Below are positions 485-63,531 of a stretch of DNA of 64,000 nucleotides, one piece after another. The notes beneath the pieces are model-generated. The model did no database searches. It was not told where the DNA came from and saw only the letters and a list, made by a program, of their open reading frames with translations. Location of the stretch: assembly GCA_963576735.1 (NCBI GenBank), contig OY755197.1, forward strand, positions 3,236,501 to 3,300,500, written 5' to 3'. The translations under genes and the position numbers were made by a program. Within the stretch, counting starts at the first letter, position 1. Each line of letters opens with the position of its first letter. Source of the stretch: Bedellia somnulentella. Its lineage: Eukaryota > Arthropoda > Insecta > Lepidoptera > Bedelliidae.

Positions 485-733
485 ATACATACATACATAT
501 ACTCACGACTATAAATCCCTAGAAGGGGTAGCCTGAGCTAAGGAATTAGAAATTCCTCAGCCACTTTTGGAAAATTGAGTGGGGAAAAGATGGTAAAATA
601 AAGGTTGTTGGTAATGGGTCTCCAACCGCATCGCCCAAAAATCCCTTAAAAACCCCCAATACCGTTAGTCGCCTCTTACGTACATCCACCGGAAGAAATG
701 GGGTAGTGCTATTCTAAGCCGACACTACACAGC
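485..733 (-). mobile_element. SINE-A, full length
   Basis: Reads on the minus strand from GCTGTGTAGTGTCGGC (ending at 733) to the TATG tail at 485. It holds the 5' module, the GCGATGCGGTTGGAGACCC middle and the 3' module GGCTACCCC..GTGAGTATATG. No target duplication was found. Confidence 0.85.
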
Positions 734-1604: not shown

Positions 1605-1849
1605 TTGCTGTGTAGTGTCGGCTTAGAATAGCACTACCCTATTTCTTCCGGTGGGTGTACGTAAGAGGCGACTAACGGTATTGGGACTATTAAGGAATTT
1701 TTGGGCGATGCGGTTGGAGACCCATCACCGACAACCTTTATCTCACCATCTTTTCCCCACTCAACTTTCCAAAAGTGGCTGAGGAATTTCTAATGCTCAA
1801 CTCTGGCTACCCCTTCTAGGGATTTATAGCCGTGAGTATATGTATGTAT
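1605..1849 (+). mobile_element. SINE-A, reference copy with target duplication
   Basis: Full-length non-coding element of 245 bp. It starts GCTGTGTAGTGTCGGC, where GTAGTG can pair with CACTAC 14 bases later. A middle part follows with GCGATGCGGTTGGAGACCC and a perfect hairpin-type AGGAATT..AATTCCT region in most copies. It ends with CTCTGGCTACCCC, a GGG that can pair with the CCC, GCCGTGAG and a TATATGTATG tail. The perfect 13-bp duplication GTTTCTAGGTTAA lies at 1592-1604 and 1850-1862, which shows target-primed insertion. The first ~85 bp match the 5' end of the LINE at 22852-26370 and the last ~45 bp match its 3' end, so that LINE is the likely source of the machinery. GGTTGGAGACC resembles a Pol III B box but lies too far (~100 bp) from any A box to be convincing. 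Confidence 0.92.
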
Positions 1850-3363: not shown

Positions 3364-3635
3364 ATGCAATTTTCTAGTAACATAATATGATTTATTGGTG
3401 ATCTCTTTAAATTAGTTTGCTTAAATACTTATAGGACACACCTATTTATAATACATACAAAAACATTTATTTGGTACTAGACCTTATATCTCAGGATTTT
3501 AGGTGATTTATTGTGGAACTGATTTTGCATTGTTTGGTGACTACATTTTGGTGACAGATCTACTATTTTGAGGACAAACCATATTATTTAAGAAACACAA
3601 AACTAATTAAATTGGTGATAGCTTAAATGATACCC
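3364..3635. other. AT-rich stretch, nothing recognised
   Basis: Contains TTGGTGAC/TTGGTGAT motifs also seen at 2400-2530. No gene or element boundary was seen. Confidence 0.4.
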
Positions 3636-4057: not shown

Positions 4058-5308
4058 TTACTGAAGATTTACACTTTTCAAACAACAACGCTTAATGTTA
4101 ACCGTGTCATCGCCACAAATATCGATTTCATCTCTTAGCTGATTCAAGGCTCTCGTCGCTCTGTTTAATGGAGAGTTGAAACCAAGATTAGTCCTAGCCA
4201 ATGTTTGTTTAAAGGGCACAATTGCATGCCTCTGACGCCTGCACGGGGCATTGAAATTAATTTGACCTAACAATTGGGGACAGTCAATATTGTTGCGAAT
4301 AATGTTGACAACAAACATATTGCTCAGCATTTCACGGCGATCGTGAAGGGACGTCATTTTAAAGTGACTCAGCCTATCATTATATGATGCAAGAGATTTA
4401 GCCTTACCACAAGAATAAGATAGGTGATACAGAAATCTTTTTTGAAGCCTTTCTATTCTTAGTGAGTGCACGTTGTAATAGGGATTCCAGACCACACTGC
4501 CGTATTCCAAGATGCTTCTAACTAACGAGTTGAACAGTGCTATCTTGGTATGATTATTCTTGAAACACTTGGTGTTTCTAAGGACAAATCCAAGACACTT
4601 TGACGCTTTACCAATAACGTTATCAAAATGTTTGATAAAAGTAAGCTTGCTATCAAAGGTAACACCAAGATCGCGAATAAGCTCAACTTTTTCCAGTTTC
4701 TCATTCTCGATTACATAGTTGCCCTCCAACACTTTATGTTTCCTTGTAAACGACACCGAAAAGCACTTCCTGGCATTAAGTATCATTTTATTTTTAAAAC
4801 ACCATGAGCTTAGTCGATTAAGATCCTGTTGCAAAAGATTTGAGTCGGCAACAGAAGAAATCTCTCTGGAGATCTTTAGGTCATCAGCAAACAAGTATGA
4901 ATCGCAATACCAAAAGCAGTCTAGGACATCGTTTACAAATAGGTTGAACAATAGTGGACCGAGGTGCGAGCCCTGAGGAACACCTGAATTAACTAAAAAT
5001 GAGAATGAGTTACTACTATTAAATACAACTCTGGCCATTCGGTCTGAAAGGTATGACCGAAGCCATACCAACAAAAAGTCTGATACACCCAAGCTCTCTA
5101 ACTTTTCCAAAAGTATAACATGGTTGACCCTATCAAAAGCCTTGCTGAAATCGGTGTATATGCAATCTATTTGTCCACCCTTATCGACCACTGCACAAAG
5201 CTTTTCCAGGTGTGAAACTAAGTTAGTCGTTGTTGAGCGTTTTTTAACAAAACCATGCTGTGACTCCGATATAAACCGTTCTGCGTCTAAAATTAAGTGC
5301 TCGTATAT
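4058..5308 (-). pseudogene. LINE ORF2, reverse transcriptase core and C-terminus
   Basis: Second part of the CR1/Jockey-type ORF2, open without a stop from just after the frameshift near 5308 to the stop at 4058. It shows the RT palm motifs in order: TDFSKAFDRVNH (with the first catalytic aspartate), SGVPQGSHLGPLLFNLFVND, then FADDLKI, the F-A-D-D catalytic box. After these come the thumb-like region with LGVTFDSKLTF and a long C-terminal part with SILEYGSVVWNP, typical of this group. The enzyme would copy the element RNA at a nicked chromosomal target. Because it is out of frame with the upstream endonuclease part, no complete protein can be made from this copy. Confidence 0.9.
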
Positions 5309-6930
5309 ATAAGACTTTCAAATAATTTAGCGAATTGCGAAAGTATGCAGATTGGTCTGTAGTCCCTGACATCACTAGCATCTCCACTCTTGAAAATTGG
5401 GACAACCTTAGTAATTTTCCAATCAGTAGGAAATATACCTGTATCAATAGACTTTGTATAAATAATATATAAAGGAGTCACAAGATTGCTAGCGCATTTA
5501 ACCAGGAAAAGAGGGGGGATACTATCTGGACCGGCACCTTTGTACAAGGAGAGTCTTTTTATTTTTTGGAGTATCTTGTCTTTAGAAATAAATTTGTGCA
5601 TCGGTTTGCCGGGTAATACAGTCACTGGGGGATATTTTTGACACGCGTTAGAGCAATCGTAAGTTAGAGAAAAATGTTCTGCAAATAAATCTGCTATTTG
5701 TTCATTATTTGAAGCTTTCTTATCTCGGAACTTCATCGATTCCGGGTAATCATTACGAAGTGTTTTCTTCTGTTTAATGAAAGACCAAAAATATTTCGGA
5801 TTCTTTCGGATGCTAATTTCTATACGGGCTATGTAATCGTTGTAACAAGATTTTGATAAGTGGTCACAACTTTTTTTGAGAGACTCAAAGGCAAGCTCAT
5901 CAAGTGGATTTGCGTACTTTTTAAACCTAGTTCTTACTTTATTTTTTTCTTTTAATAATTTTATTAGATCTTTAGAGAACCAGGCAGGATAACATTTGAC
6001 AATCTTTTGAGTTTTAGGTATATGTTTTTCAATGAGGTCATTTAAAATAGTGTAAAACTCTTTAAGCATTAAGTTGACATCATCCATGAGGCCTAATCTG
6101 TCATCCCAATCAATTTTATCAAGTTCTTGCACTATAACTGAGTAATCTGCTTTAAAAAAGTTCGGTCTTACTGAATCTGCAGGTTTAATAGATTTGAGCT
6201 GTGAAATACTAAGAGTAACCTCTAGGGGAGGATGCAATGGGTCAATACGGCTGATTATCTCGGCAGCATTTTCTACGTGAATGGTCCTTATATTGGACAG
6301 AATTAAGTCCAAAATTCTATTTTGATTGTTTTGAATAGTGTTGAATTGCTCTAAGTCATTGACAGACATACAATCAATTAGGGTTTGCGCCAACAGAGAA
6401 TTATTGTGGTCCGCGCTTGCATGTGAACGATTTGAGATTTGGGGCCAAGAAATAGAACTAAGGTTAAAATCACCAATTACCATAATTTTGTCAAGCAGCG
6501 TTGCATGCTTGTTAAGATTATCAATAAAGTGGTTAAGAATGTGCTTCTGAAGAGGCGGGGGCAGATAAACTGCGCAAATATTGATAGACTCTTTTTTCTT
6601 TTTACCACCTTGTCCTTCAACGCATACCCAAAGATCTTCACAATCACTTTCAACATCAAACATTCGGAATGACTTATATTTCTTAAGAACGGCAATTAAC
6701 ACCCCTCCTCCTTTTTTGCAACCATGGAATCCGCTGCTTTCTCGATCGCGCCTGTAAACTGCATACCTATCATCAAAGAACTCTGAAGAAATTATATTAG
6801 AATCAGCCCAAGTTTCAGTCAATACTATAATGTCATAAGAAGTACAGCATATATTTTGCCAGATATCATGAACCTTAGTCCGAACACCCCGGACATTCTG
6901 ATAATAAATTGATAGACAATTGAATTTTAC
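5293..6930 (-). pseudogene. LINE ORF2, AP endonuclease and N-terminal RT
   Basis: First part of ORF2. The frame is open from about 6930, upstream of the first ATG, so the true start is not certain. It begins with YYQNVRG and YDIIVLTETWADSN, the start of an APE-type endonuclease, then GDFNLSSISWP and LDLILSN, then a DPLHPPL box that stands where other families have the SDH motif. A basic linker with KYFWSFIK precedes the RT entry, with YKGAGPDSIPPLFLVKCA, VVPIFKSGD and YRPICILSQFAKLFESL. The frame ends early at 5293 because of an extra TA in an ATATATA run near 5306-5312, after which the RT continues in the next frame (4058-5308). The protein would nick the target and start reverse transcription. 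It is inactive here. Confidence 0.88.
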
Positions 6931-6983
6931 ATAGAATTACTATCTTTTGGTCTCAGTGCAGTGTAATACAAACAGATCAAGAA

Positions 6984-11433: not shown

Positions 11434-11673
11434 CGTGTAGCGTGGGCTTAGAATATCACTACCCCGTTTTTACCGATGGGTGTACGTAAGAGACGACTAA
11501 CAGTATTGGGACTTTAAAAGGATTTTTTGGCGATGCGGTTGGAGACCCATCACCAACAACCTTTATTTTTACCATCTTTTCCTCACTCACATTTCCAAAA
11601 GTGGCTGAGGAATTTCTAATTCCTTAGCTCTGGCTACCCTTTCTAGGGATTTACAGCCGTGAGTTTATGTATG
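11434..11673 (+). mobile_element. SINE-A, full length with target duplication
   Basis: Plus-strand copy from GTGTAGCGTGGGC to GTGAGTTTATGTATG. TACTTATTAA lies on both sides (11424-11433 and 11674-11683). Confidence 0.88.
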
Positions 11674-13519: not shown

Positions 13520-13799
13520 CATACATACATACATACATATACTCACGGCTATAATTCCCTAGAAGGGGCAGCCAGAGCCAAGGAATCATAAATTCCTCAG
13601 CCACTTTTGGAAGTTGACTGGGGGAAAGGCGGTAAAATAAAGGTTTTTGGTGATGGATCTCCAACTGCATCGCCCAAAAATCCAATAAAAAGCCCCAATA
13701 CCCTTAGTCGCCTCTTACGACACCCGTGGGTAGTAAGGGGTAGTGACATTCTAAGCCGGCACTACACAGCTAAATTAAGGTACAACGTATAAATTCACA
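13520..13799 (-). mobile_element. SINE-A, full length with extra 5' sequence
   Basis: Minus-strand copy whose 5' module ends near 13771 (GGCACTACACAGC). The 13-bp duplication ATAATAAACAAAA is perfect (13507-13519, 13800-13812), so about 28 bp beyond the usual 5' end belong to the insert. The same extra sequence, with one visible change, precedes the next copy at 13871. Confidence 0.87.
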
Positions 13800-13870: not shown

Positions 13871-14137
13871 ATACGTTGTTCCTTAATTTAGCTGTGTAGT
13901 GCTGGCTTAGAATAGCACTACCCCATTTCTTTCGGTGGGTGTACGTTAGAGGCGACTAACCATATTGGGGCTTTTAAGGGATTTTTGGGCGATGCGGTAG
14001 GAGACCCATCACCGACATCCTTTATTTCACCACCTTTTCCCCACGCAACTTCCAAAAGTGTCTGTGAAATTTCTGATTCCCTAGATCTGGCTACCCCTTC
14101 AAGGGATTTTAGCCATGTATATAAGTATGTATGTGTG
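13871..14137 (+). mobile_element. SINE-A, full length, head to head with previous copy
   Basis: Starts ATACGTTGTTCCTTAATTTA, then GCTGTGTAGTGC, and runs to a GTATGTATG tail. With 13520-13799 it forms an inverted pair about 70 bp apart. Confidence 0.85.
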
Positions 14138-14861: not shown

Positions 14862-15103
14862 CTATGTAGTGTCGGCTTAGAATAGCACTACCCCATTTCT
14901 TCCGGTGGGTGTACGTAAGAGGCGACTAACGGTATTGGGGCTTTTAAGGGATTTTTGGGCGATGAGGTTGGAGACCCATCACCAACAACCTTTATTTTAC
15001 CATCTTTTCCCCACTAAACTTTCCGAAAGTGGCTGAGGAATTTCTAATTCCTTAGCTCTGGCTACCCCATCTAGGGATTTATAACCGTGAGTATATGTAT
15101 GTT
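14862..15103 (+). mobile_element. SINE-A, full length
   Basis: TATGTAGTGTCGGCTTAG to GTGAGTATATGTATG. The next SINE-A, in opposite orientation, begins within 5 bp. Confidence 0.87.
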
Positions 15104-16135: not shown

Positions 16136-16300
16136 AGCAAATGATCGATTTCGAATATCATAGCCAAATAACAGGACTTTTTTGTCGCCGTATTTGTCGC
16201 ATTATTTTAATGATTGTAATTTAAATCTTTTTGTTCATGCAAACCTCATGTGGGGATTATTACTAATAAATAAAGAATAAATAAAGGAAAGAAAAATTTC

Positions 16301-16373
16301 GACACTGGCGGGATTCGAACCCGCGACCTCGGGTATACGCCCCCATCGCTCTTGCCAATTGAGCTACCGTGTC
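16301..16373 (-). pseudogene. tRNA-like sequence, array unit 1
   Basis: Minus strand: GACACGG start, D-arm TAGCTCAATTGGCAAGAGC with a 4-bp stem, T-arm GCGGGTTCGAATCCCGC with a perfect 5-bp stem, and an acceptor pairing at five of seven positions. The anticodon stem is poor, so it is not called a tRNA gene. It has good A- and B-box matches for Pol III. Confidence 0.7.
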
Positions 16374-16614
16374 AATGGCTGCCAGCGCGAAATTCTTCTA
16401 TCCTTTATTTCTTTTACACGTTTTAGTAGTGTTTGCGTTTCCTACCTCCGAAATTTTTACTAATTCGGAAGGCCACTTGTCTATCTTTTCAGATAGAATG
16501 CAAATGTTGAAGACGCCTAACTTTCACACAATTTATATCTTTTTGTTCATGAAAACCTCATGTGGGGATTATTACTAATAAATAAAGAATAAATAAAGGA
16601 AAGAAAAATTTTCA

Positions 16615-16687
16615 GACACTGGCGGGATTCGAACCCGCGACCTCGGGTATACGCCCCCGTCGCTCTTGCCAATTGAGTTACCGTGTC
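16615..16687 (-). pseudogene. tRNA-like sequence, array unit 2
   Basis: As unit 1 but with TAACTC in the D-arm, which weakens that stem. T-arm intact. Confidence 0.7.
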
Positions 16688-16928
16688 AATGGCTGCCAGA
16701 GCGAAATTCTTCTATCCTTTATTTCTTTTACACGTTTTAGTAGTGTGTGCGTTTCCTACCTCCGAATTTTTTACTAATTCGGAAGGCCACTTGTCTATCT
16801 TTTCAGATAGAATGCAAATGTTGAAGACGCCTAACTTTCACACAATTTAAATCTTTTTGTTCATGAAAACCTCATGTGGGGATTATTACTAATAAATAAA
16901 AAATAAATAAAGGAAAGAAAAATGTTTA

Positions 16929-17001
16929 GACACTGACGGGATTCGAACCCGCGACCTCGGGTATACGCCCCCGTCGCTCTTGCCAATTGAGCTACCGTGT
17001 C
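16929..17001 (-). pseudogene. tRNA-like sequence, array unit 3
   Basis: D-arm and T-arm intact. It has CCCGTCAGTGTC at the 3' side, a change shared with unit 5. Confidence 0.7.
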
Positions 17002-17242
17002 AATGGCTGCTGGCGCGAAATTCTTCTATCCTTTATTTCTTTTACACGTTTTAGTAGTGTTTGCGTTTCCTACCTCCGAATTTTTTACTAATTCGGAAGG
17101 CCACTTGTCTATCTTTTCAGATAGAATGCAAATGTTGAAGACGCCTAACTTTCACACAATTTATATCTTTTTGTTCATGAAAACCTCATGTGGGGATTAT
17201 TACTAATAAATAAAGAATAAATAAAGGAAAGAAAAATTTTCA

Positions 17243-17315
17243 GACACTGGCGGGATTCGAACCCGCGACCTCGGGTATACGCCCCCGTCGCTCTTGCCAA
17301 TTGAGTTACCGTGTC
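17243..17315 (-). pseudogene. tRNA-like sequence, array unit 4
   Basis: Carries the TAACTC D-arm change of unit 2. Confidence 0.7.
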
Positions 17316-17556
17316 AATGACTGCCAGAGCGAAATTCTTCTATCCTTTATTTCTTTTACACGTTTTAGTAGTGTGTGCGTTTCCTACCTCCGAATTTTTT
17401 ACTAATTCGGAAGGCCACTTGTCTATCTTTTCAGATAGAATGCAAATGTTGAAGACGCCTAACTTTCACACAATTTATATCTTTTTGTTCATGAAAACCT
17501 CATGTGGGGATTATTACTAATAAATAAAAAATAAATAAAGGAAAGAAAAATGTTTA

Positions 17557-17629
17557 GACACTGACGGGATTCGAACCCGCGACCTCGGGTATACGCCCCC
17601 GTCGCTCTTGCCAATTGAGCTACCATGTC
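17557..17629 (-). pseudogene. tRNA-like sequence, array unit 5
   Basis: As unit 3, with GACATGG instead of GACACGG at the start. Confidence 0.7.
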
Positions 17630-17837
17630 AATGGCTGCCAGCGCGAAATTCTTCTATCCTTTATTTCTTTTACACGTTTTAGTAGTGTGTGCGTTTCCTA
17701 CCTCCGATTTTTTTACTGATTCGGAAGGCCATAATATAATAAGACTAATAAGTAAAAAATTAACTTAATCGGTGCCACTCGTAAGCGCCGGTTTCCTCGT
17801 AAATGACATATCTAACGTTTTTTAATCTATGGCCATG

Positions 17838-17968
17838 TAGCTGTACAAACGAAACTGTGGTTTGCTACGCAGCTGCAGCTTACAACAGTTAATCTTGTCT
17901 CAAGTATAGCGCCTCTAAGATATTTGCTAAAGCAAGGGATATGTTTCCATTTAATTCTATATATTCCG
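17838..17968 (+). repeat. Repeat D, composite array unit 1
   Basis: ACTGTGGTTTGCTACGCAGC, CTTACAACAGTTAATCTTG, TTCCATTTAATTCTATATAT, leading directly into a SINE-A-like part. Confidence 0.8.
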
Positions 17969-18173
17969 TGAAGGGCCGGCTTAGAATGTCAATACCCCTT
18001 CTACCCACGGGTGTCGTAAGAGGCGCGTATAGGGTTTTTGGGCGATGCAGTTGGAGATGTATCACCATTGATACCTTATTTCTACTTTTTCCCCACTTAT
18101 CTTCCAAAAGTGGCAGAGGACTTTCGAGCTCTAATGCTCTGGCTACCCCTTTTTGGGATTCATGGCCGTGAGT
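17969..18173 (+). mobile_element. SINE-A, old variant in composite array unit 1
   Basis: GGCCGGCTTAGAATGTCAA to ATTCATGGCCGTGAG, with a middle deletion. It joins repeat D at GTATTGCTGTT on the right. Confidence 0.8.
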
Positions 18174-18305
18174 ATTGCTGTTCCAGAAAGCCGTGAATAC
18201 GTTCAAAGGAGACTGTGGTTTGCTACGCAGCTGTAGCTTACAACAGTTAATTAAGTCTCCAGTATAGGCCTCTAGCAATGGATAAGTAACCATTTGAATT
18301 CTATA
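18174..18305 (+). repeat. Repeat D, composite array unit 2
   Basis: ACTGTGGTTTGCTACGCAGC and CTTACAACAGTTAATTAAG. The unit is interrupted by SINE-B at 18306. Confidence 0.8.
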
Positions 18306-22828: not shown

Positions 22829-22851
22829 ATGACTGTATTGTTGTAAGTAAT

Positions 22852-22903
22852 ACATACATACATACATATACTCACGCCATTAGTTCCCATTGGGGTAGGC
22901 AGA
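22852..22903 (-). other. LINE-R 3' module (hairpin and TATG tail)
   Basis: Sense strand: CTCTGCCTACCCC, AAT, GGG, then GGCGTGAGTATATG and a TATG repeat. CCC and GGG can pair. SINE-A has CTCTGGCTACCCC..GGG..GCCGTGAG and SINE-B has CTCTGCCAACCCC..GGGG..GGCGTGA at the same place, so this is the probable reverse transcriptase recognition end shared by all three. Confidence 0.8.
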
Positions 22904-24256
22904 GACTATTGATCGCCACTTCGCACGATCCTGACAAACCTTTCTAGCTTCGTTTACATCCATCAATCTTTTCATACATGCTCTTTTATTCTTCATACTT
23001 CGGACGCCAGCCTTTTTGAGCACACTCTCAATTTGGTCCAAGTGTGTTCTCCGTGGTCGTCCTCTACTAACATTGCCATCCACACTAGCTCTATAGATCC
23101 CTTTTACCAATTTTCTATCATCCATCCTCTCTATGTGCCCAAACCATCTCAACATTCCTTTTTCTATCTTTCTTACAATATCATCTTTCACACCACACTT
23201 TTCACGAATAACACTATTTCTCACTCGGTCACATAATCTAACATTACAAATTTTTCTGAGGGACCTCATCTCTACTGCATTCACTCTGCTCTCATGCTTC
23301 TTCTGCCACACCCAACATTCGCTTCCATACATAAGCGTAGGAACAAGAACAGCATCATGCACAGCCATTCGGGCCTTTTCAGACACCGATTGACTGATCA
23401 TTAGGCTATTCATTGCTCCATTTACCGCATTACCCTTTTCCACTCTTCTTTCAATGTCTTCATCACATTTTCCATCCCTTGTAAACAAACTTCCCAGATA
23501 TACAAACTCCTTCACCTGTTCCACACCCTTACCATCAATCGCAATCACGCATTCTGTCACATCTTCCTGTCTCTCAAAAACCATCGTTTTGGTCTTATCC
23601 ACATTCACCCTCATTCCCTTTCTTACAAAAGACTCACATGCAATATTCATCATCTCTTGCAACTCTTCTGCCGACGATGCAAGTAGCACTTGATCGTCAG
23701 CATACAAGAGGCATTTAATGATGAATCCACTCATTCTTAGTCCATAATCACTTTCACGCAACTCTGTCAAACAGTCATCCATGAACAAATTGAAGAGCCA
23801 CGGAGAAGCTACACATCCCTGTCGGACACCCCTAGAGATTCCGAACCAGTCAGTGTTTTCCCCGTTTACTCTTACACATGCACTAGAATCCTCATAGAGT
23901 GATACTAATGCACGTATAAGTTGACTCCCCAAACCGAACTTGGATAACACCTCCCATAAACACTTTCTTACCACCCTATCATACGCCTTCTCTGAATCAA
24001 TGAAGGAGCAATACACCTTTTTGTTCTTAGCTAAGAACTTTTCGGTGATGCTCCTTACAGAGAAGATTTGATCCATACATCCCATTCCTTTCCTAAATCC
24101 CGCTTGCACATCCCATATTTTCTCATCAGTTTCATTCATCACTCTTTCAATCAGTACCTTAGCATACAATTTACCAACAATGCTGAGTAAGCTGATGCCG
24201 CGGTAGTTTTTAGCCTCTTGGTGTGACCCCTTTCCTTTATATAGAGGCACAATCAC
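22880..24256 (-). pseudogene. LINE-R reverse transcriptase core and C-terminal domain
   Basis: Longest open part, 458 codons. RT motifs in order: VPLYKGKGSHQEAKNYRGIS, LSIVGKLYAKVL, QAGFRKGMGCMDQIF, DSEKAYDRV (first catalytic aspartate; most relatives have DLEKAYDR), GVRQGCVASPWLFNLFMDD, and LLYADDQVLLA with the YADD catalytic box. After the thumb the C-terminal part shows EFVYLGSLFTRDGK, LMYGSECWVWQKKHESR and RWFGHIERMDD, typical of RTE-like insect LINEs. It ends VSAYPNGN, codons that also form the 3' hairpin. The enzyme would carry out target-primed reverse transcription of LINE-R and probably of SINE-A and SINE-B RNA. The frame is cut from its N-terminal part by the insertion at 24258. Confidence 0.92.
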
Positions 24257-24257
24257 C

Positions 24258-24380
24258 GCCTTAAAAATAAATAAAATAAAATAAAAAGCGTTTATTTACG
24301 AGAAACAAGAGTTAAATAAGGTGGTAGGTTTTTTTAAATAGTTCATCTTGTTCTACCTTGCGGCGTGTAAATACTTATTA
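24258..24380 (-). mobile_element. Short LINE-tail insertion within LINE-R
   Basis: Breaks the RT frame between the DWCNVI region and VPLYKGKG. Sense strand: GCGGCGTGTAAATA-like start inverted to CTCGTAAATAAACGC, then a TTTTATTTTA-type tail. It looks like a 5'-truncated 3' end of another LINE, but the family was not identified. Confidence 0.6.
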
Positions 24381-25142
24381 CATTGCACCAGTCTCGTGGA
24401 ACTTTGCCACTCAACCAGCATTTTTGGAAAAGGAAGTACAACCAAGAAGCCACCAACCCTTTACCAGCCCTCAGCATTTCGATAGTAATCCTATCATACC
24501 CTGCCGCCTTCCCTAATTTCATACTTTTCATTGCTTTCATTATTTCTTCCATACTAATCTCGCTGTCACTAAATTCACCCATCTCCCCGTTCCAATCAAC
24601 ATAACTGTCGATTGGCGAAGAAATGGATGCATCCTCTTTCTCAAACAGTCCCTCAAAATAATTCTTCCATACCCGTTTCATGCTACTTTCATCCGTCGCC
24701 AATTCACCCTGTTCATCTCTTATTACACTCACTCTCGTGTTTTGGGAAACTCCCTTTTCTTTCCGGATATACTTCCAGAATAACTTTTGGTTATTCCGGA
24801 AATTATCAGAAAGTTTCCTCTCACACCACTCTTGCAAATCCCGCTTTTTATTTCTATTTTCTTCTTTACCTCATTCTTAACTCTCTTATATTCATCTTCA
24901 CTTTTCTGCACTACATCGTCAGTTACACTCGCATCCATCCGTTTACTAGCTTTAATCGCTAGTAAATCTAACCACGCTTTCTTCTTATCTCCAACCGCCT
25001 CTTTCACAACTTTATCCCACCAACTTGTTGGTGGTCTATTTGACCTTTTACACACTCCACATACTTCCGTCGCACATTCAACCATCGTCGATTTGAGCAC
25101 ATCCCATACTTCTTCTATTTCCATTTCATCCTTCATCTCCAC
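24343..25142 (-). pseudogene. LINE-R linker and N-terminal RT region, two frames
   Basis: Two overlapping open pieces (24729-25142 and 24343-24837) joined by a frameshift near 24830. The first has PPTSWWDKVVKEAVGDKKKA and a lysine-rich helix; the second has NNQKLFWKYIRKEKG, KNYFEGLFE, LGKAAGYDRITIEMLRAG and LSGKVPRDW. This is the usual order between endonuclease and RT in RTE elements. A further frameshift separates it from the endonuclease part near 25145. Confidence 0.88.
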
Positions 25143-25147
25143 GCAAC

Positions 25148-26097
25148 TTAGTCCGCATCCAATTTTCTCAAGTATTCATCTCTGATATTTTCATCTTCTT
25201 GCAGTTTTTCTACTTTTATTCTCGCGAAATCCGTTGTTGACACTTTAGGCCTGTGACGCCAACGCGTGCACAGACCCCTTAATCGTGATATAACGAGAAA
25301 GTGATCTGTGCCAACGTTCGTGCCCCTATAGACCCTGTTGTCAACAACTTTTGTTCTCAGCCTTTTATCAACTATCACAAAATCAATCATACTTCTCTCG
25401 CTTCCCCTCTGTCTTGTATACATATGGATATCTTTGTGCTTAAACAACGTGTTTGTAACACAAAGATTCCTCTCCAAACATACCTCAATCAATTTCTCAC
25501 CATTCTCATTTACCCTTTGATCACTAAACTTTCCTAAAACTCTTTCGCAACCGTTGCATGACACACCAACCCAGCCATTAAAATCTCCTAACATTACAAG
25601 TCTCTCATTCTGATCACACCCATTCGCAACATCGTCTAACAGATTCCAAAACTCCTCCCTCTCGGATAGGGATTTAGACATGTCCGGAGCGTATACGCAA
25701 ATTATGCGCATCCGGACTAGTCCCAATTTCACCTTAATCCACAGGAGCCTTGGACTCACACATTCGTAATCTTTCATACACTGAGCCATCCTTTCAGATA
25801 TCAGAAGTCCCACTCCTTGGCTCGGTCACTGTCAGCGACTCCAGACCAGATTGCTGTAATGTTGCCAAGTTGTGAAACTTCCTTTCCCTTACGCTTCGTC
25901 TCATTTACACAAAGAAAATCCAGTTTTCTTTCATTCATAATCATACATACTTCATCTAATTTTTCAAACATTCCTCCACATACATTCATCGTACTGAAGC
26001 GGGTCTCTTTAGCCCACTTTTCGCCCCGTGAGCAACCATGGCGTGATGAGTGGCGAGCTACATCGCCGTCTCCCTGTTTACTAAAATTTGAACACAT
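25148..26097 (-). pseudogene. LINE-R AP endonuclease domain, two frames
   Basis: N-terminal third of the polyprotein in two pieces (25801-26097 and 25148-25813) with a frameshift near 25808. Motifs: TMNVCGGMFEKLDEV at the start, DFLCVNETKRKGKE (with the metal-binding glutamate), IICVYAPD, MLGDFNGWVG (GDFN box), DFVIVDKR and GTDHFLVISRL, the terminal SDH-like histidine box. All expected APE catalytic boxes are visible, so the damage is by frameshift rather than loss of active-site residues. It would nick the chromosomal target. Confidence 0.9.
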
Positions 26098-26285
26098 ATT
26101 GGACCCACGAGAAGCAAGGGAAGTAAACTGTCCACCTAGCCAGAGCCCCGCTTGACTAGGTAAGGTTATTTAGTACCCGGAGTGCACCAAGCTCCGGGAC
26201 GGCGGCACGCTAGCGACCAGGCTCACCCCTGGCCATGCATCCCTCGGCGCGGCAGACCTTGGATTGGTGTAAGAGCGAAGATGGA
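26098..26285 (-). promoter_or_regulatory. LINE-R GC-rich leader
   Basis: Between the 5' module and the coding frame; clearly richer in G and C than its surroundings (GCGGCACGCTAGCGACCAGG on the plus strand). Likely an internal promoter or 5' UTR by analogy with other LINEs; no motif was proved. Confidence 0.4.
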
Positions 26286-26370
26286 AAAGCCCTAGTCCCT
26301 TAGTCGACTTCTACGACACCCACGGGAAGAGATGGGGTAGTGCTATTCTAAGCCGACACTACACAGCAAA
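26286..26370 (-). other. LINE-R 5' module shared with SINE-A
   Basis: Sense strand begins GCTGTGTAGTGTCGGC, TTAGAATAGCACTACCCC, then GTGGGTGTCGTAGAAG, CGACTAAGGG and AGGGCTTTT. It aligns with the first ~85 bp of SINE-A with few changes and then diverges. GTAGTG and CACTAC can pair around a 14-base loop. The outer border is the target duplication, so this is the true 5' end of the insertion. Confidence 0.88.
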
Positions 26371-26408
26371 GTTGTAAGTAATGAACTCTTTTTATGTATT
26401 TTCAGTTA

Positions 26409-28178: not shown

Positions 28179-28422
28179 ACATACATACATATACTCACGG
28201 CTGTAATTCCCTAGAAGGTGTAGCCAGAGCCAAGGAATTATAAATTTCTCAGCCACTTTTGGAAGTTGTGTGGGGAAAAGATAGTAAAATAAAGGTTTTT
28301 GGTGATGGGTCTCCAACCTTATCGCCCAAAAATCCAATAAAAAGCCCCAATACCCTTAGTCGCTTCTTACGACACCCGTGGTTAGGAAGGGGTAGCGACA
28401 TTCTAAGCCGGCACTACACGGC
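28179..28422 (-). mobile_element. SINE-A, full length (GCCGTGTAGTGCC subfamily)
   Basis: Tail at 28179, 5' module ending GGCACTACACGGC at 28422. Antisense GGTTTTTGGTGATGGG marks the same variant as at 30479, 45049 and 63270. Confidence 0.87.
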
Positions 28423-29444: not shown

Positions 29445-29694
29445 CTTTTTGCTGTGTAGTGTCGGCTTAGAATAACCCTACCCCATTTCTTCCGGTGGGT
29501 GAACGTAAAAGGCGACTAACGGTATTAGGGCTTTTAAGAGATTTTTGGACGATACGGTTGGAGACCCATCACCAACAACCTTTATTCCACCATCTTTTTC
29601 CCACGCAACTTCCAAAAGTAGCTGAGGAATTTCTGATTCCTTAGCTCTGGCTACCCCTTCAAGGGATTCATAGCCGTGAGTATATGTATGTATG
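29445..29694 (+). mobile_element. SINE-A, full length with target duplication
   Basis: GCTGTGTAGTGTCGGC at 29451. TTGCCTTCTTT lies at 29434-29444 and 29695-29705; six extra bases precede the module. Confidence 0.9.
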
Positions 29695-30478: not shown

Positions 30479-30727
30479 TTGCCGTGTAGTGCCGGCTTAG
30501 AATATCGCTACCCCTTTCTACCCACGGGTGTCGTAAGAGGCGACTGAGGGTATTGGGGCTTTTTATTGGATTTTTGGGCGATGCGGTTGGAGACCCATCA
30601 CCAAAAACCTTTATTTTTACCATCTTTTCCCCACTCATCTTCCAAAAGTGGCTGAGGAATTTATAATTCCTTAGCTCTGGCTACACCTTCTAGGGAATTA
30701 CAGCCGTGAGTATATGTATGTATGTAT
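30479..30727 (+). mobile_element. SINE-A, full length with target duplication
   Basis: GCCGTGTAGTGCCGGC to GTGAGTATATGTATG. GTAACAATAA lies at 30469-30478 and 30728-30737. Confidence 0.9.
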
Positions 30728-31196: not shown

Positions 31197-31432
31197 GCTG
31201 TGTAGTGTCGGCTTAGAATAGCACTACCCCATTTCTTCCGGTGGGTGAACGTAAGAGGCGACTAACGGTATTGGGGCTTTTAAGGGATTTTTGGGCGATG
31301 CGATTGGAGACCCATCACCAACAACCTTTATTTTACCATCTTTTTCCCACTCACATTTCCAAAAGTGGCTGAGGAATTTCTGATTCCTTAGCTCTGGTTA
31401 CCCTTTCTATGAATTTAGAGCCGTGAGTATAT
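31197..31432 (+). mobile_element. SINE-A, full length
   Basis: GCTGTGTAGTGTCGGC to CCGTGAGTATATT; the TATG tail is decayed. Confidence 0.87.
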
Positions 31433-31804: not shown

Positions 31805-32165
31805 AATTTAAATCTTTTTGTTCATGAAAACCTCATGTGGGGTTTGTTACTAATAAATAAAGAATAAATAAAGGAAAGGAAAATTTCGACTAAGGCGGGA
31901 ATCCGGGACAAAATATGTGATAGTTTGGTGTTTTCAACATTTGCATTCTATCGGAAAAGGTAGACAAGTGTCCTTCCGAATTAGTAAAAATTCGGAGGTA
32001 GAAAACGCAAACACTACTTAAACGTGTAGAAATAAAGGATAGAAGAATTTCGCGCTGGCAGCCATTGACACGGTAGCTCAATTGGTAGAGCGAAGGGGGC
32101 GTATACCCAAGGTCGCGGGTTCGATTCCCGCCTGCGTCGAAATTATTCTTTCCTTTATTTATTCT
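31805..32165. repeat. Two satellite T pieces in opposite orientation
   Basis: 31805-31905 matches the array in its plus-strand reading (TTGTTCATGAAAACCTCATG). 31925-32165 is the reverse reading (CAACATTTGCATTCTATC to CTTTATTTATTC) and ends in a tRNA-like sequence. It shows that satellite T units are dispersed as well as tandem. Confidence 0.82.
32066..32139 (+). pseudogene. tRNA-like sequence of satellite T
   Basis: GACACGGTAGCTCAATTGG, TAGAGC, then GCGGGTTCGATTCCCGC. Here the D-arm reads TTGGTAGAGC, the normal tRNA form, so this copy may lie closer to the ancestor. The anticodon arm (AAGGGGGCGTATACCCAA) is still irregular. Confidence 0.65.
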
Positions 32166-36318: not shown

Positions 36319-36572
36319 GCCGTTTAGTGTCGGCTTAGAATAGCACTACCCCGTTTCTACCGATGATGGGTGTAAGTAAGAGGTGACTAACGGAGTGGGG
36401 CTTTTAAGGGATTTTTAGGCGATTCGGTTGGAGACCCATCACCAACAACCTTTACTTTACCATCTACTCCCCACTCAATTTTCCAAAAGTGGCTGAGAAA
36501 TTTCTAATTCCTTAGCTCTGGCTACCCCTTCTAGGGATTTATAGCCGTGAGTATATATATGTATGAATGTAT
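36319..36572 (+). mobile_element. SINE-A, full length
   Basis: GCCGTTTAGTGTCGGC to GTGAGTATATATATGTATG. Confidence 0.85.
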
Positions 36573-38516: not shown

Positions 38517-38774
38517 CATACATATACATACATAAATATAGTCACGGCTATAAATCCCAAAAAAAATTAGCCAGAGCTTCAGAGCTACAAACTTCTCAGC
38601 CTCATTCGGAAGTTGATAGAGGGCAAGGTGGTAGAAATAAAGTATTATTGGAGATGGTTCTCATACCGCATCACCCAAAAACATCTTAAAAATGCCCCAT
38701 ACATTTAGTGGCCTATTACGACACCCGTGGGTAGAAATGGGTAGTGACATTCTAAGCCAGCACTACACGGCAAA
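38517..38774 (-). mobile_element. SINE-A, full length with target duplication
   Basis: CACAACAATA lies at 38507-38516 and 38775-38784. It carries the older CTTCAGAGCTACAAAC middle, so even this older variant has kept its duplication. Confidence 0.85.
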
Positions 38775-43145: not shown

Positions 43146-43403
43146 CATTCATCATATACTCACGGCTATAAATCCCTATAAGGGGTAGCCAGAGCTAAGG
43201 AGTTAGAAATTCCTCGGCCACTTTTGGAAGTTGCGTGGGGAAAAGATGGTGAAATAAAGGTAGTTGGTGATGGGTCTCCAACCGCATCGCCCAAAAATCC
43301 CGTATAAGCCCTAATACCGTTAGTCGCCTTTTACGTACACCTACCGGAAGAAATGGGGTAGTGCTATTCTAAGCCGACACTACACAGCAGTCAAAGCCCT
43401 AAG
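43146..43403 (-). mobile_element. SINE-A, full length with target duplication
   Basis: 5' module ends GACACTACACAGC at 43388; 15 more bases belong to the insert, because TTTCAGCATTA lies at 43135-43145 and 43404-43414. Confidence 0.9.
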
Positions 43404-43689: not shown

Positions 43690-43737
43690 ATTTATATGAT
43701 AGTCTTTGCTTATCCCAATGGGAACAAATGGCATGAA
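43690..43737 (+). mobile_element. LINE-R 3' end, very short
   Basis: GATAGTCTTTGCTTATCCCA, ATGGGAACAAATGGCATGAA; directly followed by a SINE-A. Confidence 0.65.
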
Positions 43738-43746
43738 CAAATGAAT

Positions 43747-43993
43747 ACATACATACATATACTCACGGCTATAAATCCCTTAACGGGGTAGCCAAAGCTT
43801 TGGAATGATAAATTCCTCAGCCACTTTTGGAAGTTGATTGGGATAAAATATGATAATAATAAACGTTTTTGGTGATGGATCTCCAACCAAATCGCCCAAA
43901 AATCACTTAAAAAGCCCCTATACCCTTAGTCGCCTCTTACGATCACCCACGGGTAGAAATGGGGTAGTGCTATTCTAAGCCGACACTACATGG
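43747..43993 (-). mobile_element. SINE-A, full length with target duplication
   Basis: Variant with CCCTTAACGGGG in the 3' hairpin. CAAATGAAT lies at 43738-43746 and 43994-44002. Confidence 0.88.
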
Positions 43994-44002
43994 CAAATGA
44001 AT

Positions 44003-44450
44003 GTATTCTTTTATCAGTTACATTTTTTATCAGTCATTTCTAAAGAAATTTAATGTTTATTTGCCTTCGCTGAATCGCTGGGTAGTTTTATAAATCCTTC
44101 ATGAAAGTTGTCTTCAATATGATACTCTTGCAAAAAGGGAAAAATATTAAAGATGTACGTAAAGTGCTTACCGTATCATAAACGATTCAATTGAATCTTT
44201 TCGTGGTTGCCTCTTCGCGTTTCTGTCTCCCATAGTCTTTTTGTATCATTTATCTTACTTTTTATTGATATTTTCTTCGTTTGGTAATGATTTTCAATAA
44301 CATATTGAGAATACAAATAATGCCGCGTCTTTATATCACTTTATATTTTTTATCTTTTGGTGTTTCCGTATGTTTTGGCAAAATTATGTCAGCTTATCGC
44401 TTATAATGTATATAGCTTATTATATGACATATGTATGTATAAATGAAAAC
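44003..44450. other. AT-rich stretch, nothing recognised
   Basis: No gene or repeat was recognised. Confidence 0.4.
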
Positions 44451-44461
44451 ATCTCTAAATA

Positions 44462-44723
44462 ATAATAATGTTGTCGCTGTGTAGTGTCGGCTTAGAATAG
44501 CACTTCGCCTATTCTTCCGGTGGTTGTACGTAAGAGGCGACTAACGGTATTGGGGCTTTTAAGGGATTTTTGGGCGATGCGGATGGAGACCCATCACCAA
44601 TTTTACCTTTATTTTACCATCTTTTCCCCACTTGACTTTCCAAAAGTGGCTGAGGAATTTCTAATTCCTTAGCTCTAGCTAACCCATCTAGGGATCTATA
44701 GCCGTGAGTATATGTATGTATGT
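44462..44723 (+). mobile_element. SINE-A, full length with target duplication
   Basis: ATCTCTAAATA lies at 44451-44461 and 44724-44734. About 14 bases (ATAATAATGTTGTC) precede GCTGTGTAGTG within the insert. Confidence 0.9.
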
Positions 44724-44734
44724 ATCTCTAAATA

Positions 44735-45031
44735 CCAAATATTTGACCCATAAAACCCATGTAAAACCAACGGCAAAAATAAGTTAAAAACGACAGCTTG
44801 TATCACAACAGTGCACGCAAGATTAACATATTTATCTAATGATGTGAAGTAAAGAGGATAAGACAGCCTTAATCCTGTAATATACATGAAACAGAGTCGG
44901 GCTAAAAATTTCCCGGCATTCTGTGAAGCTTGGACAAAATAAGCGTTTAATACACTCGATTAAAAGCTTTTGTGGGGCTTTTAGTGCTTATTAATTTTAA
45001 GTTTTATAGAATAAAGACATGCCATTTATGA
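44735..45031. other. AT-rich stretch, nothing recognised
   Basis: No gene or repeat was recognised. Confidence 0.4.
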
Positions 45032-45048
45032 CGTATAACACAGAACAT

Positions 45049-45294
45049 CCATACATACATATACTCACGGCTATATTTCCCTAGAAGGGGTAACCAGAGC
45101 TAAGGAATTATAAATTCCTCAGCCACTTTTGGAAGTTGAGTGGGGAAAGATGGTAAAAATAAAGGTTTTTGGTGATGGGTCTCCAACCGCATCGAACAAA
45201 AATCCAATAAAAAGCCCCAATACCCTTAGTCGACTCTTACGACACCCGTGGGTAGAAAGGGGTAGCGACATTCTAAGCCGGCACTACACGGCGG
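45049..45294 (-). mobile_element. SINE-A, full length with target duplication
   Basis: AACACAGAACAT lies at 45037-45048 and 45295-45306. A third copy of the same string lies at 45396-45407, beyond a SINE-B piece. Confidence 0.9.
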
Positions 45295-45306
45295 AACACA
45301 GAACAT

Positions 45307-45395
45307 AACATAACATAAACGTTCACGCCGAATATCCCCGAAGGGGTTGGCAGAGGTACTAATAATAACACCTGGTGTTCAGAGTACCCACGTAT
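45307..45395 (-). mobile_element. SINE-B, short 3' end, inserted at a SINE-A target duplication
   Basis: AACATAACATAAACGTTCAC, CCCCGAAGGGGTTGG, GGTACTAAT, then a deletion joining to ACACCTGGTGTTCAGAGTAC. It is bounded by AACACAGAACAT on both sides. Confidence 0.85.
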
Positions 45396-45410
45396 AACAC
45401 AGAACATTGT

Positions 45411-45664
45411 AAAAATACATACATACATAAATATACTTACTATAAATCCATAGAATAAGTAGCCAGAGCTTCGAAATACGAAATTCCTCAGCCACTTTTG
45501 GGAGTTGAATGGGGAAAAGATAGTGAAACTAAGGTTTTTGGTAATAGGTCCCCAATCGCATCGCTCAAAAATCACTGAAAAAGCCCTAACATCCTTATTC
45601 GTCTCTTACGAATTAACGCGGAAAGAAATGGGGAGTGCTATTCTAAGCCGTCACTACTCACTGC
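45411..45664 (-). mobile_element. SINE-A, diverged
   Basis: TACATACATACATAAATATA to GCCGTCACTACTCACTGC. Confidence 0.82.
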
Positions 45665-45931
45665 AAAAGATATATCTTTTTTTAAAAATTACGAGACATT
45701 TTGCCACCTTATAACCAGAGAACTCATTTTTTATTGGATAGTGCACTCTTATTACTCGTAACACATTTTTGAAATAGACTTTAAGAATTACACTTAATTT
45801 CCACATTGTAAAAAATAAAATAATAAGTATGAAAATCTTGATAAATTTAAATAAAGTTCTGAGCTATCACAGTAGCTTACTCACTAAAACTCATTGTCAC
45901 ATTATTGAGTATATATCAACTATACATTGTT

Positions 45932-46581: not shown

Positions 46582-46822
46582 GCTGTGTAGTGTCGGCTTA
46601 GAATAGCACTAACTCATTTCTAGCCGTGGCAGTTTGTAAGAAGAGACGTAGGGTATTTGGGGATTTTAAGTGATTGATTTGCGATGCGGTTGGAGACCCT
46701 TCACCAACATCCTTTATTTCACTATCTTTTCCCCACGCAATTTCGAAAAATGGCTGAGGAATTTCTAATTCCCTAGCTCTGGCTTCAAAGGATTTATAGC
46801 CGTGTGTATATGTATGTATGAA
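46582..46822 (+). mobile_element. SINE-A, full length
   Basis: GCTGTGTAGTGTCGGC to GTGTGTATATGTATG. The next copy follows in the same orientation within 5 bp. Confidence 0.85.
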
Positions 46823-46826
46823 TGTA

Positions 46827-47040
46827 GTTGTGTAGTGTTGGCTTAGAATAGCACTACCTTATTTATATCCGTGGGTGTTCATAAGAGGCGACAAAGGAAA
46901 TACCCCCTTTGGATGCGGTTGGAGACCCATAACCAGCAACCTTAATATATTAAAATATTTTCAAGAGTGGATAAGCAATTTTTCTTTCGAAGCTCTGGCT
47001 ACCCCTTCGAGAGATTCATAGCCGTGAGTTTATGTATGTA
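46827..47040 (+). mobile_element. SINE-A, diverged, tandem to previous copy
   Basis: GTTGTGTAGTGTTGGC to GCCGTGAGTTTATGTATG, with an internal deletion after GCGACAAAGG. Confidence 0.82.
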
Positions 47041-47890: not shown

Positions 47891-48144
47891 ATACATACAT
47901 ACTTACATACATATTCTCACGGCTGTAATTCCCTAGAAGGGGTAGTCCGAGCCAAGTAATTATAAATTCCTCAGCCACTTTTGGAAGTTGAGTGGGGAAA
48001 AGATAGTAAAATAAAGGTTTTTGGTGATGGGTCTCCAACCGCAACGCCCAAAAATCCAATAAAAAGCCCTAAAACCCTTATTCGCCTCTTACGACACCCA
48101 TTGGTAGAAAGGGGTAGCGACATTATAAGCCGGCAATACACGGC
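47891..48144 (-). mobile_element. SINE-A, full length, short target duplication
   Basis: AAAATATC lies at 47883-47890 and 48145-48152. GCCGTGTATTGCC subfamily. Confidence 0.83.
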
Positions 48145-48176: not shown

Positions 48177-48573
48177 GTGTCAACCACATCGCCTAAAAAT
48201 TACTTAAGATCTTCAATATCCTTAGCCACCTCTTATAACACCCACAAAAATAAAAAGTGTGCTGTGTAGTGTCGGCTTAGAATAACACTACCCCATTTCT
48301 ACCCGTGGGTGATCGTAAGAGGCGACTACGGGTATAGGGGCTTTTTAAGTGATTTTTGGCCGATGTGGTAGGAGACCCGTCACCAAAAACATTTATTACC
48401 ATCTTTTCCCCAATCAACTTCCAAAAGTGGCTGAGGAATTTATTATTCCAAAGCTCTGGCTACCCCGTTAAGGGATTTATAGCCGTGAGTATATGTATGT
48501 ATGTATGTACCTCTTATAACACACATAAGAAGAAATATGTTAGTGCTATCATTAGCGGACACTACACAGCGAA
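48177..48573 (-). mobile_element. SINE-A, old copy interrupted by a young SINE-A
   Basis: GATGTGTCAACCACATCGCC and GCCACCTCTTATAACAC before, ACATAAGAAGAAATATGTTA and GCGGACACTACACAGC after 48242-48508. Confidence 0.82.
48242..48508 (+). mobile_element. SINE-A, full length, nested, 14-bp target duplication
   Basis: ACCTCTTATAACAC lies at 48228-48241 and 48509-48522. The insert has 20 extra bases (CCACAAAAATAAAAAGTG region) before GCTGTGTAGTGTCGGC at 48262. Confidence 0.93.
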
Positions 48574-60212: not shown

Positions 60213-60448
60213 GATATATATACTCACGGCTATATTTCCCTAGAAGGGGTAGCCAGAGCTAAAATATTATAAATTCCTCAGCCACTTTTGGAAGTTGAGT
60301 GGGGAAAAGATGGTAAAAATAAAGGTTTTTGGTGATGGATCTCCAACCGCATCGCCCAAAAATCCAATAGAAAGCCTCAATACCCTTAGTCGCCTCTTAC
60401 GACACCCGTGGGTAGAAAGGGGTAGCGAAATTCTAAGCCGACACTACA
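60213..60448 (-). mobile_element. SINE-A, split by the LTR element
   Basis: Starts GATATATATACTCACGGC; the missing end of its tail (CATAGATA) is at 48797-48804. 5' module ends CCGACACTACACA at 60448. Target duplications at 48762-48796 and 60449-60483. Confidence 0.88.
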
Positions 60449-60483
60449 CACATTAGTACGTAGAAAATAAATAATAAAAATAA
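60449..60483 (+). repeat. 35-bp target duplication of SINE-A, right copy
   Basis: Identical to 48762-48796. Confidence 0.88.
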
Positions 60484-61280: not shown

Positions 61281-61680
61281 GAAATGACTAAGCTGTGCTA
61301 AAAAAATTGCGAGACAAAATACAACACCGGCAACAATCAGCCATACCCAAAACTAATACCATAGCACAAGAACTATAACAATATGACAAAGCTCACAAAA
61401 TAACCGACGGAACCCAACTCTGAAACAAATTTCTAACTTGACCGAAGTTCCCCGACAACCGTTGTGACGTCATGCGTGAATTCACTATATTACTCGGGTT
61501 ATACGAAATCTGAGATTGAGTCGTCGCTTTGTGAGCGTAATACTTCTCGGATACAATACGTATAGGGATGGTAAAAGTTAATTTATGAACTTAACTCACT
61601 TATAATCTAAACATGCTCGGCTTAGTATTGAAATACCTTAGCCTGTTTCAAATTTAACACGGGGTGAAAGTTAGGAAATA
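61281..61680. other. AT-rich stretch, nothing recognised
   Basis: No gene or repeat was recognised. Confidence 0.4.
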
Positions 61681-61890
61681 CATACATACTCACGGCAATT
61701 AGTCACTAAGGGGGTAGCCAAAGCGTCGGAGCTAGAAACTCCTCAGCCACATTTCGAAATTAATAGGAGAGATGATGATAAAAAAGGATCAATGGTGACG
61801 GATCTTCAACCGCATCAACCAAAAACTCGCCTCTTACAACTCCCGTGGATAGAAAGGGGTGAAACATTCTAAGCTGGCACAACACGGCAC
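61681..61890 (-). mobile_element. SINE-A, diverged
   Basis: ACATACTCACGGCAATTAG to AAGCTGGCACAACACGGC. Confidence 0.8.
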
Positions 61891-61957: not shown

Positions 61958-62206
61958 ACATACATACATACATATACTCACGGCTATAAATCCCTAGAAG
62001 GGGTAGCCAGAGCTAAGGAATTAGAAATTCCTCAGCCACTTTTGGAAGTTGCATGGGCAAAAGATGGTGAAAAAAAGGTTGTTGGTGATGGGCCTCCAAC
62101 CGCATCGCCCAAAAATCCCTTAAAAGCCCCAATACCGTTAGTCGCCTCTTACGTACACCCATCGGAAGAAATGGGGTAGTGCTATTCTAAGCCGACACTA
62201 CACAGC
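61958..62206 (-). mobile_element. SINE-A, full length
   Basis: Tail CATACATACATACATATACT, 5' module CCGACACTACACAGC. TATATGTA near both edges may be a short duplication. Confidence 0.87.
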
Positions 62207-63269: not shown

Positions 63270-63531
63270 CGTGTAATGCCGTGTAGTGCCGGCTTAGAAT
63301 GTTGCTACCCCTTTCTACCCACGGGTGTCGTAAGAGGCGACTAAGGGTATTGGGGCTTTTTATTGGATTTTTGGGCGATGCGGTTGGAGACCCATCACCA
63401 AAAACCTTTATTTTTACCATCTTTTCCCCACTCAGTTTCCAAAAGTGGCTGAGGAATTTATAATTCCTTAGCTCTGGCTACCCCTTCTAGGGAAATATAG
63501 CCGTGAGTATATGTATGTATGTATGTAATGT
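63270..63531 (+). mobile_element. SINE-A, full length with target duplication
   Basis: GCCGTGTAGTGCCGGC to a long TATG tail. ATCATACAAAC lies at 63259-63269 and 63532-63542; eight extra bases lie at the 5' end. Confidence 0.9.

Follow-up and report, generated by a model that had tools for sequence, protein, structure and literature searches.

Both ends of a LINE in an abundant short element of Bedellia somnulentella: a likely internally deleted derivative

How a very numerous short interspersed nuclear element (SINE) comes to carry both ends of a long one (LINE), and from what promoter it is then transcribed, are the questions raised by a 64,000-nucleotide stretch of the lepidopteran Bedellia somnulentella (contig OY755197.1, positions 3,236,501 to 3,300,500, here called the window and analysed at its full length). 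It contains one near full-length retrotransposon without long terminal repeats (non-LTR), LINE-R, which is judged to be RTE-type, and many copies of SINE-A, an element of about 245 nucleotides (nt) without a coding body. SINE-A probably derives from the LINE-R lineage as a short internally deleted element (SIDE), or bipartite non-autonomous RTE derivative, a reading carried by homology at both ends, by copies flanked by target site duplications (TSDs), by a head with no recognisable likeness to an RNA of RNA polymerase III (Pol III) and by a tail whose letters are coding sequence in the LINE.

Shared ends and an unrelated middle

The LINE-R head, 5' untranslated region (UTR), open reading frame (ORF) and tail lie as a single insertion within one 12-bp TSD, the same letters GTTGTAAGTAAT standing on both sides as an earlier note on this DNA had read them. 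Both an endonuclease of the apurinic/apyrimidinic (APE) type and a reverse transcriptase (RT) are recognised by Pfam in an ORF that is broken in this copy, and past the TAA stop the 3' UTR is very short and made up of simple repeats, TGGCGTGAGTATATG(TATG)n. A very short simple-repeat 3' UTR is given as an RTE feature (PMC2887409). Among the best 120 of 1,287 matches to the RT the named relatives that rank high belong to Plutella, Phthorimaea and Parnassius, and a few matches that bear bacterial names are taken to be contamination.

When the whole of LINE-R was compared with the window by BLAST, many matches fell on its first ~85 nt and on its last ~50-180 nt, and with the two ends as separate queries 37 head and 53 tail matches were obtained at E<=0.1, LINE-R itself appearing once in each set. 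The sharing of both ends, including the ~85 bp 5' match and the 3' motif that the earlier note had pointed out, is borne out by these searches. LINE-R nt 2-90 match SINE-A heads across the window, at best with 89.3% identity over 84 nt (E 1e-23; LINE nt numbers of matches, here and below, read one too high), and the first letters coincide, being GCTGTG or GCCGTG in SINE-A and likewise, after three T, in LINE-R. Head and same-strand tail together measure 237-253 nt in 21 of the 37 cases. A tail lies within 600 nt of 28 heads; the alignment took in 22 of them and excluded six whose spacing was odd (149, 204, 315, 391, 624 and 677). The aligned copies comprise subfamilies A1 (n=9), A2 (n=8) and A3 (n=2) together with three diverged copies. 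At E<=1e-6 the subfamily consensuses match 50 pieces, including the head of LINE-R itself, which together span 8,859 of the 64,000 bases (13.8% of the window), and 26 copies are near full-length, with both ends within 12 nt of the consensus ends.

SINE-A copies are retrotransposed and have TSDs: an exact flanking repeat of at least 8 bp is found in 14 of the 26 near full-length copies, the longest being 13 bp, and in 5.7% of 650 mismatched flank pairs taken as control. At SINE-A 5' junctions (for example those of the copies at 492-733, 43153-43388 and 44476-44718) the TSD is separated from the start of the element by a variable number of extra letters, about 2 to 15 where the TSD is at least 10 bp long and three (TTT) in LINE-R, and these may be untemplated additions.

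The last ~50-75 nt of LINE-R match the SINE-A tails, and in LINE-R these shared letters are codons, ending ...KWRSIVSAYPNGN-stop. The C-terminal motif [VI]SAYP.G is found in five of eight aligned relatives of the LINE-R protein, the remainder having VAAYP in one, a diverged ..TYP in one and a departure after WRSVV in one. A conserved protein C-terminus is very unlikely to be the product of a SINE, and because the shared 3' end encodes just such a terminus of the LINE protein, the SINE-A tail came from a LINE. Fourteen LINE-type 3' fragments in the window (15 entries, the inverted copy at 132-378 having been entered twice) are 68-94% identical to their own consensus, and the LINE-R 3' end agrees with the LINE 3' consensus at 127 of 135 positions (94.1%). 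The inverted copy has its 5' part turned round, LINE nt 3288-3437 on the minus strand being followed by nt 3451-3520 on the plus strand, a layout that twin priming would give.

Between its shared ends SINE-A has a middle of ~80 nt that recurs among its copies. No significant match to this middle was found in LINE-R, 15 and 35 of 200 simple shuffles scoring as high on the two strands, and the description of SINE-A as a LINE with its middle replaced stands in this respect.

Transcription of SINE-A and its proposed route

No tRNA was found at the SINE-A copies, the single ARAGORN gene and six Rfam tRNA matches of the window all lying elsewhere, and an Rfam scan at E<=5 over 43700-48600, which holds eight near full-length copies, found neither tRNA nor 5S nor 7SL RNA, its two matches being at chance level. 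A 5S origin of the head had been suggested by a likeness to A box, intermediate element and C box seen by eye, and was rejected when alignment to 5S proved no better than that of dinucleotide shuffles (four heads, each scored in three ways, gave p 0.23-1.0, and the A1 consensus as far as the tail gave 0.68). An internal run of at least five T occurs in 21 of the 22 aligned copies, and of at least four T in all 22, the consensuses having T4-T5 and T5 runs soon after the head. Such T runs normally terminate Pol III transcription. No pair of A and B boxes is common to the A1, A2 and A3 consensuses. Because of the missing tRNA, 5S or 7SL likeness, the internal T runs and the want of consistent A and B boxes, SINE-A is predicted to be transcribed from the 5' promoter region that belongs to the LINE itself, with Pol II as the probable polymerase, as has likewise been proposed for the lepidopteran element Persaeus (PMC6740152). 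The earlier note had derived both the promoter and the RT recognition of SINE-A from the LINE; the 3' end was indeed taken from such a LINE, and the 5' promoter is a plausible candidate in view of the UTR sequence, the lack of Pol III likeness and the T5 runs.

The head itself was considered as a structured RNA. Single folds of the LINE-R head and the three consensuses are no better than those of shuffles (z -0.11 to 0.88), and RNAalifold on the heads gives nine pairs with no double change. A structure made by hand was scored on the LINE-R head and 23 SINE-A heads, where it pairs 89.8% of cells, columns 49/78 being C-G in 11 of 24 rows and G-C in another 11. In paired cells, in doubly changed cells and in covariation score it was equalled by none of 500 shuffles, but 235 of 500 equalled its three doubly changed pairs and 401 of 500 its pair types; one clear compensatory change, A1 against the rest, lies in the head hairpin. 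Since related copies inflate the paired-cell, doubly-changed-cell and covariation scores, support for a head RNA structure is weak. A ribozyme like that of hepatitis delta virus (HDV) at the 5' end was also tried with a rough descriptor, giving 15 matches in A1, three in A2 and one in a LINE string, the last in the flank outside the element. In all 11 A1 and A2 matches listed (eight of the A1 15 being listed) P1 begins 3 nt inside the element, with a mismatch. This candidate was rejected because cleavage there would remove the first letters of the element and because the compensatory change backs a different hairpin; the test was a weak one, the LINE start positions tried having stopped short of the true 5' end and the three matches listed for the positive control having a P2 partner other than the known one.

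The route envisaged for SINE-A would begin with the loss of the coding body from an RTE-type LINE of the LINE-R lineage, ~85 nt of LINE 5' UTR and ~50-75 nt of LINE 3' end being retained with ~80 nt of unrelated DNA between. SINE-A RNA would start at the same nucleotide as LINE RNA by way of the LINE 5' promoter region, and the LINE protein would take it in trans by recognising the shared 3' end, prime at the nicked target and copy it in. The head would thus have passed from LINE to SINE and not in reverse. If so, the pair offers a clean way to test which parts of its RNA an RTE LINE requires, the retained common ends (~84 nt at 5' and ~50-75 nt at 3') should be requirements of transcription and reverse transcription, and abundant lepidopteran "SINEs" are to be checked against LINE 5' ends as well as against tails. 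The most interesting side of SINE-A is its copy number without a Pol III head. Tentatively, and with some doubt, an element with LINE ends only might reach ordinary SINE abundance (~14% of the window) from a LINE promoter, and the RTE-partnered "SINEs" of Lepidoptera, perhaps Metulj among them, might be the same thing misfiled as tRNA-derived.

Direction of the shared head

Three observations favour a native LINE 5' end in LINE-R over a chimeric one, namely UTR length, missing subfamily hallmarks and headless fragments. The 5' UTR of HmRTE-e01 is 276 nt (PMC2887409), and because that of LINE-R, head included, is of nearly the same length (~273 nt), its head looks unlike an addition to an already complete UTR. 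Over 85 positions the LINE-R head differs from the A1 consensus by 8 mismatches and 2 gaps, from A3 by 10 and 2 and from A2 by 15 and 2, the A1, A2 and A3 heads differing from one another by 8-10 mismatches; it has neither the A1 hallmarks (TGTACG, AACGG) nor those of A2 (AATGTCGC and a deletion before TTTC). No head lies directly upstream of any of the 14 other LINE-type 3' fragments in the window, the nearest on the same strand being 192 nt off and part of a complete SINE-A.

These observations bear most on the alternative that survives best, that this one LINE-R copy is a chimera made when the RT switched from LINE RNA to SINE-A RNA during insertion, other LINE-R copies being headless. Switching of this kind has precedent in the R2 RT, which has been reported to move onto other RNAs at the 5' ends of LINEs (PMC3414825), and with one copy to hand a single TSD cannot tell chimeric from native cDNA. 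However, the LINE-R head lacks the hallmarks of A1 and of A2 and is 10 mismatches and 2 gaps from A3, the 5' UTR is of ordinary length, none of the 14 truncated fragments has such a head, and an end-to-end jump would leave a SINE tail at the junction, where none is seen. We regard the chimera as unlikely.

Several points nevertheless weigh against a SIDE of the LINE-R lineage, some of them in favour of the chimera. Among the nine A1 copies, two lie no closer to the A1 consensus than the LINE-R head does (that at 11435 differs by 13 mismatches, that at 36319 by 7 mismatches and 4 gaps), and three diverged SINE-A copies lie further still from the consensuses; with so wide a spread of A1 and diverged copies, distance by itself would also fit the capture of an old SINE head. 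The two distant A1 copies do keep A1 hallmarks, and this hallmark evidence offsets the spread. The LINE 5' end is seen in one LINE-R copy in the 64-kb window: no second copy with a 5' part was found there by tblastn of five ORF pieces against the rest, because only the C-terminal RT piece matched elsewhere (13 rows). LINE-R is judged RTE-type from its anatomy, the names of its relatives giving no clade, and the mode of SINE-A transcription is predicted from sequence. A B-box-like site in the SINE-A middle (nt 105-107 of the consensuses, with one mismatch in A1 and A2 and two in A3) may leave room for weak Pol III transcription; an A-box-like site stands 56 nt before it in A2 and, at another place, 37 nt before it in A3, and none was found upstream of it in the A1 consensus. 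Finally, a Plutella LINE that ends in ATGT repeats is reported to share its tail and not its 5' region with SINEs (PMC8010984), and the direction of head transfer is judged from LINE-R and SINE-A themselves.

A direction judged within the pair leaves room for the second alternative, in which the whole LINE-R family acquired its 5' end from a SINE older than itself and the head is SINE in origin. Template switching that yields chimeras has been put forward as one way in which new SINEs arise (PMC6740152, PMC7245038). Bipartite RTE derivatives arising by internal deletion are, on the other hand, called common (PMC7245038), and a SINE that donated the head would call for an explanation of its own, since neither tRNA nor 5S genes resemble it; we hold this origin to be somewhat more doubtful than a chimera. 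Least of all do we expect SINE-A to be a Pol III SINE of the classical type, with a tRNA- or 5S-like head too decayed to be recognised and a LINE 5' match that is secondary. For this very improbable reading speaks the B-box-like motif with its preceding A-box-like sites in A2 and A3, as does Metulj, an abundant heliconiine SINE with a suspected RTE partner, whose first 73 nt were described as containing A and B boxes (PMC4016481, PMC6685494); against it stand the lack of any Rfam or ARAGORN match at SINE-A and of a 5S signal, the internal T5 runs and an A1 consensus with no A-box-like site upstream of the B-box-like one.

Relatives of the pair were also sought in outside DNA, and none was found in four scans of viral contigs and two of prokaryote genome contigs; in one prokaryote contig scan a pattern was fitted by five stretches, all without a coding region for a relative. 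The head motifs brought up no paper in a text search of the literature. Presumably the motif, in a longer form, is common in lepidopteran DNA.

Coordinates of LINE-R and of the near full-length SINE-A copies, the latter as found with the subfamily consensuses, are collected in the table. Elsewhere in the window a tandem array at 16218-17731 has 4.8 copies of a 314-bp unit (96% matches) and holds five Rfam tRNA matches, one of which ARAGORN names tRNA-Tyr; a lone Rfam tRNA match (43.5 bits) lies outside this array at 32067-32139 on the plus strand. A second tandem repeat, at 52922-53667, has 3.5 copies of a 215-bp unit (92% matches). Another non-LTR-like element, at 4058-6936 on the minus strand, has endonuclease-like and RT-like frames (547 and 419 amino acids) and, judged by eye, is of a type other than LINE-R.

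Table. Positions in the window of LINE-R, its parts and the near full-length SINE-A copies
Feature	Position	Strand	Remarks
LINE-R, RTE-type non-LTR retrotransposon	22852..26370	minus	near full length; frameshifts and insert break the ORF
TSD GTTGTAAGTAAT, copy 1	22840..22851		perfect, 12 bp
TSD GTTGTAAGTAAT, copy 2	26371..26382		same 12 letters
Head in common with SINE-A (LINE-R 5' end)	26285..26367	minus	88.2% to subfamily A1
LINE-R 5' UTR	26098..26370	minus	~273 nt, assuming the inferred start is the ATG of MCSNF
LINE-R ORF, N-terminal part	25801..26097	minus	open reading frame, no Pfam match
LINE-R ORF, endonuclease part	25148..25825	minus	PF14529, E 1.3e-10
LINE-R ORF, linker and RT start	24382..25175	minus	two overlapping frames
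AT-rich insert within RT part	24264..24381		~118 bp; approximate limits, set by eye where the protein reading breaks off and restarts
LINE-R ORF, RT and C-terminus	22880..24263	minus	PF00078, E 1.1e-36
3' end in common with SINE-A tails	22852..22926	minus	last codons KWRSIVSAYPNGN and stop, short 3' UTR, (TATG)n
SINE-A copy	492..733	minus	A1, TSD 10 bp
SINE-A copy	1607..1846	plus	A1, TSD 13 bp
SINE-A copy	11435..11673	plus	A1
SINE-A copy	13532..13770	minus	A2
SINE-A copy	13891..14129	plus	A1
SINE-A copy	14862..15101	plus	A1
SINE-A copy	17966..18175	plus	diverged, 75.6% to A2
SINE-A copy	28184..28422	minus	A2
SINE-A copy	29451..29690	plus	A1, TSD 11 bp
SINE-A copy	30481..30720	plus	A2, TSD 10 bp
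SINE-A copy	31197..31432	plus	A1
SINE-A copy	36319..36561	plus	A1
SINE-A copy	38531..38771	minus	A2, TSD 10 bp
SINE-A copy	43153..43388	minus	A1, TSD 11 bp
SINE-A copy	43752..43994	minus	A3
SINE-A copy	44476..44718	plus	A1, TSD 11 bp
SINE-A copy	45054..45292	minus	A2, TSD 12 bp
SINE-A copy	45426..45660	minus	diverged
SINE-A copy	46582..46816	plus	diverged
SINE-A copy	46829..47038	plus	diverged, part of middle deleted
SINE-A copy	47906..48144	minus	A2
SINE-A copy	48265..48499	plus	A3
SINE-A copy	60214..60449	minus	A2
SINE-A copy	61678..61888	minus	diverged, 69.7% to A2
SINE-A copy	61967..62206	minus	A1
SINE-A copy	63278..63517	plus	A2, TSD 11 bp

SINE-A among known elements

RIME of Trypanosoma brucei is a short element with both ends of the LINE ingi, a design like that of SINE-A, from which it differs in LINE clade and in host. 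It is named, as TbRIME, among the SIDEs (PMC6740152). RTE elements are stated to "often generate" families without the internal portion (PMC7245038, citing Kojima 2018), and the bipartite non-autonomous derivatives so described are like SINE-A in being an RTE LINE without its inside, with a piece of 5' UTR and the 3' end kept (PMC7245038). The hagfish bipartite RTE families of the same account have a tRNA or 7SL head in front, whereas SINE-A opens directly with the 5' end of the LINE and contains in addition its ~80-nt middle unrelated to LINE-R. The earlier note had called a numerous SINE made from both ends of an RTE-like LINE unusual, which is overstated in that RTE derivatives lacking the inside are frequent (PMC7245038) and that Persaeus (PMC6740152) and the R2 SIDEs (PMC3414825) are built in this way too.

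Persaeus, a SIDE of the CR1 LINE Zenon known from 21 lepidopteran species, seems close in many respects, being from Lepidoptera, with both ends from one LINE, a central variable region of unclear origin, no reported tRNA, 5S or 7S similarity or Pol III promoter, and many copies in numerous genomes (PMC6740152). Its parent is a CR1 element with a poly(A) tail, in contrast to the RTE-type parent of SINE-A with its (TATG)n tail (PMC6740152), and SINE-A was for this tail and the RTE-type judgement of LINE-R rejected as a Persaeus-type CR1/Zenon derivative. R2Dwi_SIDE of Drosophila has R2 5' and 3' ends about a 197-bp middle without R2 identity, in which it is like SINE-A; unlike SINE-A, the Drosophila R2 and R2/R1 SIDEs have a self-cleaving ribozyme 5' end and insert specifically in ribosomal DNA (PMC3414825). 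Metulj of heliconiine butterflies resembles SINE-A in length (~267 bp), in being very numerous and in its suspected RTE partner, and differs in its described tRNA-like head with A and B boxes, the two being compared by description only (PMC4016481, PMC6685494). SINEs of Plutella and Helicoverpa have LINE tails and 5S or tRNA heads (PMC8010984, PMC3272025). No description of this LINE-R/SINE-A pair was found in the literature, most subscription journals lying outside the search. RTE-derived SIDEs, the kind to which SINE-A probably belongs, are already described.

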